Assembly: GCF_000686525.1 (NCBI RefSeq)
Contig: NZ_JMKT01000001.1
Coordinates: 1 to 64,000 of the forward strand
DNA: 64,000 bases
Direction of reading: 5' to 3'
Source: Desulfonatronovibrio hydrogenovorans DSM 9292
Lineage (GTDB): Bacteria; Desulfobacterota; Desulfovibrionia; Desulfovibrionales; Desulfonatronovibrionaceae
Of this stretch, positions 50,526-53,473 are shown in pieces (position 1 is the first letter of the stretch; every line of letters starts with the position of its first letter). A program made the position numbers and the translations under genes. The notes under the pieces are model-generated. The model was not told the DNA's origin, did no database searches, and saw nothing but the letters and a program-made list of their open reading frames with translations.

Positions 50526-50697
50526 ACAGACCTGCAAAGGATCAACCCTTAGTGTCCAGACAGTGCACCAAAGGATAAAATTTCAATCTACCCATTGACT
50601 TTTTCTATGGAATATTCTGTTTTATATTCAATGCGCCAATATGTTTGTCTCAGGTTCTTTATAACCCTGCGACAGTACTCCTTAAGGAGGGTTGCTT

Positions 50698-50991
50698 ATG
50701 AAAAATGATGATCTGAAAAAAATGCTGACCACCATCTGCCTGACCGGACTTCTGGCCGGCTCAGGCATTGGAATATCAGCATGCAATGCCAGCGGATGAG
50801 GATCTTCCAACAGCAATGCGGTCGGCAATGCCAATGGAAGCGGCTGAGGAGCAACCAACGGAGACGCAGGTAGCGCTCCAGCAGGAAGCGGTTGAGGTGC
50901 AACTGACATCGGTGCCGGGGGCACCGATGATAGTGACCAGGAACCCAAGCCAACTCCCGCACCCAGCGGTTGAGGCGGAGGCTCCAATTAG
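50698..50991 (+). CDS. Selenocysteine-rich precursor peptide (four in-frame UGA)
   Basis: ATG 50698 has a near-perfect AAGGAGG 6 bp upstream. The frame reads 97 residues to TAG at 50989-50991 if UGA codons at 50797, 50845, 50893 and 50971 are read as selenocysteine (residues 34, 50, 66, 92). All four sit in the same context, AGC-GGN-UGA-GGN (Ser-Gly-Sec-Gly); the first three are exactly 48 nt apart. Each is followed by a SECIS-like hairpin. Residues 1-31 form a leader with a charged start (KNDDLKKML) and a hydrophobic Gly-rich stretch ending ISACNA. The core is rich in Gly, Ala, Asn and Ser. The radical SAM/SPASM gene follows. I infer a RiPP-like precursor; the family resembles the predicted 'selenobiotic' peptides. 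A conventional reading would stop at residue 33. Confidence 0.88.
50804..50840 (+). promoter_or_regulatory. SECIS-like hairpin after UGA 1
   Basis: The upper stem GCAATGC/GCAATGC (50813-50819 with 50825-50831; central A-A mismatch) carries a GGTCG loop. A lower stem CTTCCA/TGGAAG (50804-50809 with 50835-50840) lies below a small internal loop. The loop GGU is 21-23 nt after the UGA. The loop is close to the GGUCU of the E. coli fdhF SECIS. Confidence 0.82.
50860..50879 (+). promoter_or_regulatory. SECIS-like hairpin after UGA 2
   Basis: Stem GGAG-a-CGC / GCG-CTCC (50860-50867 with 50873-50879), seven pairs with one bulged A, and an AGGTA loop. The loop GGU is 22-24 nt after the UGA. A bulged base and an AGGU loop are also features of the fdhF SECIS. 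Confidence 0.82.
50907..50929 (+). promoter_or_regulatory. SECIS-like hairpin after UGA 3
   Basis: A perfect 10-bp stem, CATCGGTGCC (50907-50916) with GGCACCGATG (50920-50929), and a GGG loop 22-24 nt after the UGA. The stem begins 11 nt after the UGA. The loop lacks the U seen in the other three. Confidence 0.8.
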
Positions 50992-51008
50992 CGCAGTTGG
51001 CGCTGATT
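50986..51008 (+). promoter_or_regulatory. SECIS-like hairpin after UGA 4, spanning the stop codon
   Basis: Nine pairs, AATTAGCGC (50986-50994) with GCGCTGATT (51000-51008; one T-G wobble), and an AGTTG loop. The loop GU is 23-24 nt after the UGA. The TAG stop codon (50989-50991) lies inside the left arm, so half of the element is untranslated. Confidence 0.8.
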
Positions 51009-51019
51009 TCCAACGCTCA

Positions 51020-51051
51020 GGGCGGCGGCATCAGGCGCATTTGCTCCGCCC
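51020..51051 (+). other. GC-rich hairpin between precursor and maturase genes
   Basis: GGGCGG (51020-51025) pairs with CCGCCC (51046-51051) around a 20-base loop, 12 bp before the maturase ATG. No T run follows. It may limit expression of the maturase relative to the peptide. Confidence 0.5.
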
Positions 51052-51063
51052 ATCCTGAAAAAA

Positions 51064-52662
51064 ATGCCGGACAAAAATACCCTAGAAACAGCCTGCCCAT
51101 CCTGCCGGGCAATACTGGGCCAGGACGCGTGGTCTCAGGTCTGTGCCCGATATCTCCTTGACAGCCCTGATGATTTTCCTGATTTCCTGGACCAGCTTGA
51201 AACCCTTCCTCCGGGCCTAGCTTTTATTCCGGACCTGGCCAGGCTTGAGCTGGCAGTGGCCAGGATAGCCGAATGTATTCCAGCTGAACCTGTGGGCAGT
51301 CATGATGTAAACACCTGCCTTGAACTGCTGGATCTTGACTGGTCCGGCCTCTGCTCCCTGGTAAAAAACAGAAACAGGGAGAAAACCAGTCCACCCAGAA
51401 ACATCAAGGAAAAGGTCCTGGTGTGGAAACAGGGTGATGAAATTCTATTCAGGCCGGCAACTGCCAATGATCTTCTGGCCCTGAAGCTGGTCCTGGAGAA
51501 CATAAACATCTCTGAAGCAGCAAAAATTGCCAACCGCCCTTCTTCTTATATCTGGCCGGTGATCAATGAAGCCAGGCGTAATGGCATCCTGGTGGGGGAA
51601 AAAACCAGAATAGCCAGAGACCCTGAAGTATTTGAAGTCAAATCCCACCTTGCCCCCAAATATCAGCAAGCAGATGTGTTCACCCTGCAGTGGCACATAA
51701 CTCAGGCCTGTGATTTAAATTGCAAACATTGCTACGGCAGGGAAAGCCGGAATCATCTGGACCTGGACAGTGCCTTGAGGATACTGGATGAATTCCAGCA
51801 CTTCTGTAAAAACAAGAATGTCCATGGCCAGGTCAGCCTGACCGGGGGTAATCCACTTCTTCACCCTGATCTGGAAACAATCCATGCAGCAGCTTCAGGC
51901 ATGGGCTTTACAGTAGGCATCCTGGGCAATCCCACTTCAGAAGATCAGCTGAAAAAGCTGCTGAAAAAAGGACCGATCTCCTTTTTTCAGGTCAGTCTGG
52001 AAGGCCAGGAAGAACACAATGACTATATCCGCGGCCAAGGACATTATAAAAAAGTCCTGGGGTTTTTAGATGTCTTGAAAAAACTGGATATATACTCCAT
52101 GGTTATGCTCACCCTGACCAGGGCCAATGCAGGCCAGGTCCTTTGCCTGGCCCGGGAGATCCAGGACAGGGCTGACCTCTTCACCTTCAACCGGTTGTCA
52201 ATGGTGGGGAGTGGAGCTCATCTGACTCCGGCTGGGCAGGATGAGTTCAATGAACTTCTGGCCGACTACCAGGAGCAGGCCAGAACCATGTCAGTCATGG
52301 GATTCAAGGACAATCTGCTTAATCTTTTCAGGTTCAGGCATGGACGCCAGCTATTCGGCGGCTGCACCGGTTATGGGTGCGGCGCAGCCTTTAATTTTGT
52401 TTCCGTGCTTTGCGACGGAGAGGTTCACGCCTGCAGGAAATTTCCCTCCAGGCTGGGCAGTATTTATGATAACAGCCTGGAACAGATTTATGATTCCCAA
52501 GTTGCCGCTAAATACAGGAAAGGATCAAAAGGGTGTGTTGGCTGCGCCATCAGACATGTCTGCGGAGGATGCCTGGCAGTGACCTACAGCCATGGCCTGG
52601 ACATATTCCAGGACCGTGACCCCTATTGCTGGATGAACCAGAGCCAGGAGAAGTTCAGATAA
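51064..52662 (+). CDS. Radical SAM/SPASM peptide maturase for the selenopeptide
   Basis: The 532-residue protein has an N-terminal region of about 200 residues (with an early TACPSCRAI pair), a radical SAM core and a SPASM domain. The [4Fe-4S]-SAM motif is CDLNCKHCYG near residue 219, followed by SLTGGNPLLHPDL. The SPASM domain carries FGGCTGYGCGAAF, LCDGEVHACRKFP and GCVGCAIRHVCGGCLAVTYSHG, then a final DPYCW; these cysteines would bind auxiliary clusters. Such enzymes modify ribosomal peptides, and the Sec-rich peptide gene directly upstream is the obvious substrate. It resembles maturases of the predicted selenobiotic family. ATG 51064 has no clear ribosome-binding site. Confidence 0.9.
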   Translation: MPDKNTLETACPSCRAILGQDAWSQVCARYLLDSPDDFPDFLDQLETLPPGLAFIPDLARLELAVARIAECIPAEPVGSHDVNTCLELLDLDWSGLCSLVKNRNREKTSPPRNIKEKVLVWKQGDEILFRPATANDLLALKLVLENINISEAAKIANRPSSYIWPVINEARRNGILVGEKTRIARDPEVFEVKSHLAPKYQQADVFTLQWHITQACDLNCKHCYGRESRNHLDLDSALRILDEFQHFCKNKNVHGQVSLTGGNPLLHPDLETIHAAASGMGFTVGILGNPTSEDQLKKLLKKGPISFFQVSLEGQEEHNDYIRGQGHYKKVLGFLDVLKKLDIYSMVMLTLTRANAGQVLCLAREIQDRADLFTFNRLSMVGSGAHLTPAGQDEFNELLADYQEQARTMSVMGFKDNLLNLFRFRHGRQLFGGCTGYGCGAAFNFVSVLCDGEVHACRKFPSRLGSIYDNSLEQIYDSQVAAKYRKGSKGCVGCAIRHVCGGCLAVTYSHGLDIFQDRDPYCWMNQSQEKFR

Positions 52663-52663
52663 A

Positions 52664-53473
52664 GTGAACATGCTGCTCATGGATCAGGAGCTGGTCATCA
52701 GACTCAGCTTTTTTCTAGGGATTTTTTCAATTATGGCCCTGTGGGAAAACAGATATCCCAGACGAAAGCTGACCCAGCCAAAGTGGAAAAGATGGCTCAA
52801 CAACCTGGGCCTGACCCTGTTCAATTCTGTTCTGCTCAGGATTCTCTTCCCTGTGGCTGCAGTAGGTGTAGCCATCCTGGCCCAGAACAATCAGTGGGGG
52901 CTGTTCCAGCAGCTGGCTGTTCACCAGATCCTGGCCGGAATTGTATCCATAATCATCCTTGATTTTGCCATTTATTCCCAGCACCTTATTTTCCATAAGG
53001 TTCCCATTTTGTGGCGCCTGCACCGGATGCACCACACTGACCTGGATATTGACGTGACCACCGGGGCAAGGTTTCACCCGGTTGAAATCATTCTGTCCAT
53101 GCTCATCAAGATCGGGATTGTTCTGGCCCTGGGAGCTCCGGCCTGGTCTGTGGTTGTTTTTGAGGTTATCCTCAATGCCACGTCCATGTTCAATCACAGC
53201 AATGCATACCTAAAGGCTTCCATTGACCGTTTCCTGAGGCTCATGGTGGTGACCCCGGACATGCACCGGGTCCACCATTCTGTGCTCATCAAAGAGACAG
53301 ACAGCAATTACGGTTTTAACTTTCCCTGGTGGGACCGGCTGCTGGGAACCTACACCGATCAGCCTAAAGCTGGACATGATAAAATGACCATTGGCCTGGC
53401 CAACTACCGTGATCCAAAATGGCTCAGGCTGGAATGGATGCTTTTCACTCCTTTTGCCCGCTGGTATCGCTAA
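52664..53473 (+). CDS. Membrane fatty acid hydroxylase/sterol desaturase family protein
   Basis: The 269-residue protein has about four membrane spans and the three histidine clusters of the di-iron hydroxylase superfamily: HLIFH, HRMHH and HRVHH, with FHPVEIILSM and FNHSNAYL between them. Members hydroxylate or desaturate lipids or other hydrophobic substrates using O2. It starts (GTG 52664, or ATG 52670) 1 bp after the maturase stop codon, so it is probably in the same operon. Whether it acts on the peptide, on a lipid anchor or on something unrelated is open. An O2-using enzyme is notable in a presumed anaerobe. Confidence 0.85.
   Translation: MNMLLMDQELVIRLSFFLGIFSIMALWENRYPRRKLTQPKWKRWLNNLGLTLFNSVLLRILFPVAAVGVAILAQNNQWGLFQQLAVHQILAGIVSIIILDFAIYSQHLIFHKVPILWRLHRMHHTDLDIDVTTGARFHPVEIILSMLIKIGIVLALGAPAWSVVVFEVILNATSMFNHSNAYLKASIDRFLRLMVVTPDMHRVHHSVLIKETDSNYGFNFPWWDRLLGTYTDQPKAGHDKMTIGLANYRDPKWLRLEWMLFTPFARWYR

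Follow-up and report, generated by a model that had tools for sequence, protein, structure and literature searches.

For the SbtA/SbtM family of ribosomally synthesized and post-translationally modified peptides (RiPPs), the accessible part of one review reports a loss of four hydrogens from Cys and selenocysteine (Sec) substrates of another SbtM and a thiooxazole in the Cys product (PMC11002830). The same system appears as a 'selenobacteriocin' in a 2026 inventory that covers 119 families and subfamilies of prokaryotic selenoproteins, describes itself as the most comprehensive and which, in the part available, assigns one Sec to the vast majority and two to three to a small subset (PMC13188914). 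Captophorins, peptides made by O2-using MNIO enzymes with PME1 partners, bind copper according to the portion of the source at hand (PMC12668002). In this study, we examine an sbtA-sbtM gene pair in the first 64,000 nucleotides (64 kb; hereafter the window) of contig NZ_JMKT01000001.1 of Desulfonatronovibrio hydrogenovorans DSM 9292, in which sbtA carries four in-frame UGA codons. We propose that SbtM is a PME1-fold recognition module fused to a radical S-adenosylmethionine (SAM) enzyme and that SbtA peptides are exported selenooxazole metallophores, a reading to which we give a probability of roughly 0.4.

The sbtA gene, its UGA codons and its family

50684..50690, forward strand: ribosome-binding site AAGGAGG of sbtA (sequence)
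50698..50991, forward strand: sbtA, 97-residue precursor, ATG at 50698, stop TAG at 50989-50991 (TGA read as U; TIGR04081)
50797..50799, forward strand: UGA 1, predicted Sec34 (frame reading; three-precursor alignment)
50845..50847, forward strand: UGA 2, predicted Sec50 (frame reading; three-precursor alignment)
50893..50895, forward strand: UGA 3, predicted Sec66 (frame reading; three-precursor alignment)
50971..50973, forward strand: UGA 4, predicted Sec92 (frame reading; three-precursor alignment)
51064..52662, forward strand: sbtM, radical SAM/SPASM maturase, 532 residues (TIGR04082; Pfam Radical_SAM and SPASM)

The SbtA leader (residues 1-26) passes the NCBIfam model TIGR04081 for SbtA precursors with 40.2 bits (cut-off 30.5), and SbtM, whose gene begins 72 nt behind the sbtA stop, passes TIGR04082 with 635.7 bits (cut-off 350); the pair is therefore, by these sequence models, a member of the already described SbtA/SbtM thio(seleno)oxazole RiPP family. 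Since both the family and its chemistry have been described, four Sec residues alone do not make this a new kind of system. An earlier reading of the window, made from the sequence alone (the sequence-only reading), had suggested possible membership in a predicted 'selenobiotic' peptide and maturase family, which corresponds to this NCBIfam pair; the term itself, probably an older name of the family, was not found in the open-access literature searched. The locus shares with the described system the curated cut-offs passed by leader and maturase, the SGUG motif (U, Sec) and the position of the precursor gene directly before the maturase gene; it differs in having four Sec, against two for the representative tabulated in the available part of the inventory (PMC13188914). 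The next best NCBIfam model for the maturase is that of the ACGX system (TIGR04340 radical SAM/SPASM), a membership that we rejected at 162.9 bits, well below the cut-off of 400.

The ribosome-binding site, the ATG and a frame running through four UGA codons to a TAG, as proposed in the sequence-only reading, are plain in the sequence. All four UGA codons stand in the context AGC-GGN-UGA-GGN, giving four SGUG sites; the first three are 48 nt apart, as had also been claimed, and the fourth lies 78 nt beyond the third. The pattern AGCGGNTGAGG has four matches on the forward strand of the window, all in sbtA, and none on the reverse strand, and occurs on average 0.3 times (both strands summed) in 20 dinucleotide shuffles. 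When homologues were aligned, as the sequence-only reading had suggested, all four UGA codons were found to be kept in the three precursors compared, namely those of the window, of a genome of the same genus (G011) and of one of the same order (G448). Between the window and G011, the 63 codons compared after the first UGA give nonsynonymous (dN) and synonymous (dS) substitution rates of 0.112 and 1.076, with 28 of the 40 substitutions at third positions and 53 residues identical. Because dN is low relative to dS and the changes are mostly at third positions, sbtA beyond its first UGA is under purifying selection, that is, selection on protein.

Were sbtA instead a decayed gene, its UGA codons would be ordinary stops and its product a peptide of 33 residues. 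Standard translation does stop at 50799, and a read-through relative was not found in a collection of about 5.8 billion predicted proteins, in which 83 candidates for sbtA included none with E <= 0.001, though an NCBIfam model exists; for this one large collection, the expectation that automatic annotation misses the gene thus holds. However, such decay is scarcely credible when purifying selection continues past three further UGA codons, relatives keep all four of them, hairpins stand at a fixed distance, the family model is passed and a maturase gene adjoins.

The genome search for Sec machinery that the sequence-only reading proposed returned selA, selB, selD and a tRNA-Sec with anticodon tca in this genome (2.9 Mb, 98.87% complete). 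Its selD (G000:C8:543155-544081, L172) has an internal TGA, and SelD is itself probably a selenoprotein. Across the family, precursors with Cys only were found in six genomes, five of which lack a SelB above the cut-off and show sites of the type TSCSG or SSCG; these calls cover the fetched stretches of the six genomes, further precursors having been sought only in G146. SelB is present in one of the six Cys-only genomes (G146) versus 55 of the 58 other SbtM genomes (Fisher p 4e-5), and selA in 1/5 Cys-only versus 24/25 Sec-precursor genomes (p 9e-4), the latter set being 30 named genomes made up of five Cys-only ones and 25 picked by hand among those with Sec precursors. The exceptions to this Sec/Cys pattern are G146, which has SelB yet Cys-only precursors, L209, which has selA with SelB not found, and L186, which has a Sec precursor with selA not found. 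Eight genomes have two SbtA genes near one sbtM (G070, G130, G159, G213, G219, G299, G335 and G653), and in G219 Sec sites are confined to one of the two, its partner having only Cys.

SbtM exceeded its cut-off in 39 of 395 genomes of a phylum sample, 21 of 348 of a class sample and 7 of 18 of a family sample, the three samples overlapping. The SbtA leader passes its own cut-off in 56/59 SbtM genomes versus 0/14 controls. From 138 precursor reads, 127 remained after the over-long L247 and identical copies were dropped and the window's own copy was excluded; matches in G012 (C47), G393 (C82) and G217 lie outside this set, and in 11 of 80 named loci a precursor was not seen. The 127 unique precursors carry no Sec in 10 cases, one in 10, two in 47, three in 51 and four in 9, so that four, the number in the separately counted copy of the window, is the maximum. 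These counts depend on the cutting rule, by which reads were cut at UGA codons judged true stops (at most two codons from another UGA, or outside a small-residue context); raw reads with at least five UGA exist (L184, L218 and others). The ten zero-Sec reads comprise three second copies in Sec-precursor genomes (G070, G213, G219), the six Cys-only genomes and L223, whose zero is an artefact of the rule. The SGUG motif occurs at 107 of the 292 SbtA family sites. Measured against the two to three Sec of the multi-Sec families in the inventory, this 97-residue peptide would carry four, as a ring-forming substrate.

Predicted SECIS hairpins

50804..50840, forward strand: predicted selenocysteine insertion sequence (SECIS) hairpin 1, with GGUCG as its apical loop, 20 nt behind UGA 1 (fold; passes the automatic test)
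50865..50875, forward strand: predicted SECIS hairpin 2 with the core CGC-AGGUA-GCG, its loop 20 nt behind UGA 2, weakest of the four (conserved in three precursors; fails the automatic test)
50907..50929, forward strand: predicted SECIS hairpin 3 (fold; alignment; passes the automatic test)
50987..51007, forward strand: predicted SECIS hairpin 4, extending past the TAG, loop AGUUG 21 nt after UGA 4 (fold; conserved beyond the stop; passes the automatic test)
51017..51058, forward strand: hairpin between sbtA and sbtM (fold in the window, G011 and G448)

Read by eye from the sequence and its folds, the four UGA codons of sbtA are followed by apical loops that begin, in order, 20, 20, 21 and 21 nt downstream. 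In the alignment of the three precursors, likewise read by eye, two stem pairs of hairpin 3 are changed on both sides, so that the stem is preserved, and hairpin 4 remains conserved in sequence past the stop codon, in the non-coding part. Family-wide, 255 of 289 Sec codons have the loop of their strongest hairpin 16-23 nt downstream, as compared with 26 of 85 Cys codons, and when codons displaced by 4, 6 or 8 either side of the Sec codon are taken, a hairpin loop is in range for 12 to 113 of the 289. A loop at 17-23 nt was likewise found for 242/292 Sec codons versus 352/1460 dinucleotide shuffles.

An automatic minimum free energy test, demanding a loop at 16-23 nt, at least four pairs and a G among the first two loop bases, is passed by 236 of the 292 Sec codons of the family; elsewhere in the window 325 of 2660 other TGA triplets (12.2%) pass as well. 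Several results weigh against a hairpin of its own for each UGA: only three of the four sbtA codons pass this test, the second (50845) failing; in G011 another hairpin, at 16 nt, is the strongest contiguous one at the fourth UGA; and at the first UGA of G011 and of G448 the contiguous-stem score selects other hairpins (27 and 33 nt). The loop of hairpin 2 is seen only in the longest fold (52 nt). Of the earlier claim of four hairpins at matching distances, the distances hold on reading by eye, with loops 20-21 nt after each UGA, and the second hairpin is the weak member.

Taken together, the family models, the Sec machinery, the conserved UGA codons, the placed hairpins and the purifying selection agree, and a 97-residue precursor with four Sec is for this reason the supported, best reading of sbtA, as had been proposed. 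The UGA codons are almost certainly read as Sec, and each presumably relies for this on the predicted SECIS hairpin that follows it.

In six other SbtA genes (G652, G326, L184, L206, L216 and L252), Sec codons occur in pairs three codons apart with one strong hairpin, which lies 17 nt behind the second UGA and 26 behind the first in all except L252 (20 and 29); it seems that one SECIS serves two UGA codons there. In ten further genes (G001, G002, G004, G007, G212, G257, G438, G439, G441 and G442), the last Sec codon immediately precedes TAA, this UGA falls at the loop of a first hairpin, and a further one is located 18-21 nt behind the UGA in the untranslated part. The hairpin at 51017-51058 is also strong in G011 and G448, and it may in part belong to the last SECIS as its tail; the sbtA-sbtM intergenic stretches have a folding z-score below -2 in 38 of 92 cases in the family.

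The leader and predicted export of the peptide

50698..50781, forward strand: leader (residues 1-28) with a charged start followed by a hydrophobic part, a predicted export signal with a lipobox-like I-S-A-C at its end (TIGR04081; family leader statistics)
50782..50784, forward strand: codon of Cys29, with which the mature peptide is predicted to begin and which is predicted to be lipidated (sequence; lipobox rule)

Judged by simple rules, the leader resembles a signal peptide in its layout across the family. At least two K/R are present in the first ten residues of 121 of the 127 precursors, and the best 11-residue Kyte-Doolittle window averages 2.33 in the leader versus 0.02 in the rest. By a position rule, a lipobox-like Cys is found in 46/127 precursors, in 43 of these after Gly, and position 29, the Cys of the window, is Cys in 46/127 relatives; among the 81 precursors that have no lipobox-like Cys, 73 have an xxA-like site under a permissive pattern. 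In L218, residue 29, at the lipobox Cys position, is a UGA, which is possibly a Sec, an error or a sign of a decayed copy. A weak point is that hydropathy does not fully separate leader from core (leader minimum 0.61, core maximum 1.39). A first lipobox pattern (27 strict and 47 loose matches of 127) missed forms and was replaced by the position rule.

The gene neighbourhood was surveyed at 122 loci, with five open frames of at least 80 residues on each side and the 28 largest clusters listed. No small partner gene, exporter or protease at a fixed place beside the pair was found in more than five of the 122 loci, frames below 80 residues being uncounted. The largest neighbour cluster spans 26 loci, scattered over many places and both strands, and the next 11; clusters of 10 and 8 loci at place -1 on the opposite strand look like shadow frames of sbtA. 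An oxidoreductase upstream of sbtA recurs in four of the 122 loci, the window included. A gene of the fatty acid hydroxylase family (52664-53473) begins one base behind the end of sbtM in the window and is not among the 28 largest neighbour clusters of other SbtM loci. At the edge of the window, four CRISPR direct repeats (CRISPR-DR4) lie at 5-212 on the reverse strand.

In the MNIO systems with PME1 partners, the precursors carry Sec-pathway signal peptides, as stated in the part of the source available (PMC12452194). Given this precedent, the charge and hydropathy layout of the leader, the lipobox-like and xxA-like sites and the neighbourhood result, there is good ground to infer that the SbtA peptide is exported, and a fair one to infer that the peptide of the window is lipidated; export as a lipoprotein is the likelier course. 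The hydrophobic N terminus could instead be a plain recognition leader cut by a cytoplasmic protease, in keeping with the conservation of TIGR04081 in sequence over 27 positions, beyond hydropathy alone. This is unlikely in view of the signal-like family layout, from the K/R start and hydrophobic stretch to Cys after Gly or xxA-like sites; moreover, the signal peptide of bufferins is, in preliminary work given in the accessible part of its report, part of the recognized sequence (PMC12452194), so that one leader may serve both ends.

The maturase fold, proposed function and related systems

51064..51606, forward strand: SbtM N-terminal domain, residues 1-181, PME1-like fold with a helical part and a RiPP recognition element (RRE) part (predicted structure)
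51709..51732, forward strand: CX3CX2C motif of the radical SAM core, C216, C220 and C223 (invariant in 26/26 aligned SbtM)

In the predicted structure, SbtM shares over its N-terminal 180 residues the fold seen in PME1-type partners of MNIO enzymes. The structure search with this domain had 3dee among its matches; with the full-length model, 3dee was not in the best 50, which are filled by radical SAM maturases (SkfB, SuiB). Judging by fold and size, the partner TglI would be chain A in the TglHI entries. The relation between SbtM and PME1 appears in the fold only; a sequence-profile search of the domain against PDB gave a single chance match (1mhq, E 0.55). When 26 SbtM were scanned with Pfam, only that of the window matched DUF2063 (E 0.00099), under the cut-off, and DUF2063 is consequently not claimed by sequence. 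MNIO (PF05114) had no match at E <= 1e-20 in the genome of the window; among the 395 phylum genomes MNIO occurs in 11, SbtM in 39 and both in none, an overlap of zero that chance gives with p 0.31, and for this reason we claim no mutual exclusion. A PME1-like domain in SbtM was not mentioned in the open-access literature searched and, as far as that literature goes, the link of SbtM to PME1 and captophorins is new here.

We propose that the N-terminal PME1-like domain of SbtM, with its helical part and RRE, would bind the SbtA leader, and that the radical SAM/SPASM core would remove four hydrogens from each Gly-Sec pair, yielding a 5-selenooxazole at each of the four sites. In a next step the leader would direct export in the manner of a lipoprotein signal (I-S-A-Cys29), and a 69-residue peptide, anchored by its lipid and bearing four selenium rings, would end outside the cytoplasm, where it may bind soft metal ions as the thiooxazole peptides of captophorins and bufferins bind copper. 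Sec insertion and modification by SbtM, taken together, are very probable, and we hold modification at all four sites to be highly likely; metal binding by the product, for which we argue by analogy, is a tentative suggestion at somewhat less than even odds.

Two other functions have to be weighed. Being a RiPP precursor whose leader is export-like and some of whose residues are predicted to be modified, the peptide might be a bacteriocin or signal acting on other cells, which is what the label 'selenobacteriocin' implies; however, the label comes with no activity data in the available part of the inventory (PMC13188914), and in view of the neighbourhood result above this role seems quite improbable. 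The selenium rings might alternatively serve redox protection or selenium storage. The peptide is selenium-rich, with four predicted Sec in 97 residues, and most uncharacterized selenoproteins are likely to be redox in function according to the same partly available source (PMC13188914). Against this stand the Cys that precursors from genomes lacking SelB have at sites of the same kind, and the consideration that an oxidized ring would be a poor selenium store; we regard such a role as having only a minor chance. Because Cys stands at such sites in those genomes, the ring, rather than selenium itself, seems to be the conserved thing. An exported, metal-binding ring peptide is the function that we favor, and the captophorin link gives the SbtA family its first testable function.

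Among related systems, the RiPP-lipoprotein DybA of the MNIO family shares a lipoprotein-type signal on a RiPP precursor but, as described in the accessible part of the report, has an MNIO enzyme that recognizes a C-terminal substrate motif and makes another modification (PMC12636315). The closer likeness is to captophorins and bufferins made by MNIO with PME1 (fontiphorin, oxazolin, gonophorin and the bufferins). These have the same 5-thiooxazole ring as reported for SbtM, a PME1-like recognition domain (here by model fold), a leader with export-signal layout and several sites per peptide. They differ in that an O2-using MNIO acts there and a radical SAM enzyme here, where the recognition domain is fused to the enzyme, Sec replaces Cys, and copper binding is a prediction by analogy. 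The likeness suggests that a single recognition fold came to be combined with two unrelated oxidizing enzymes to make the same ring. If our proposal is true, SbtM and captophorin systems would share recognition fold, export-signal leader and ring and differ in the oxidizing enzyme, and anaerobes would make with selenium and SAM radicals the exported metal-binding ring peptides that aerobes make with sulfur and oxygen.
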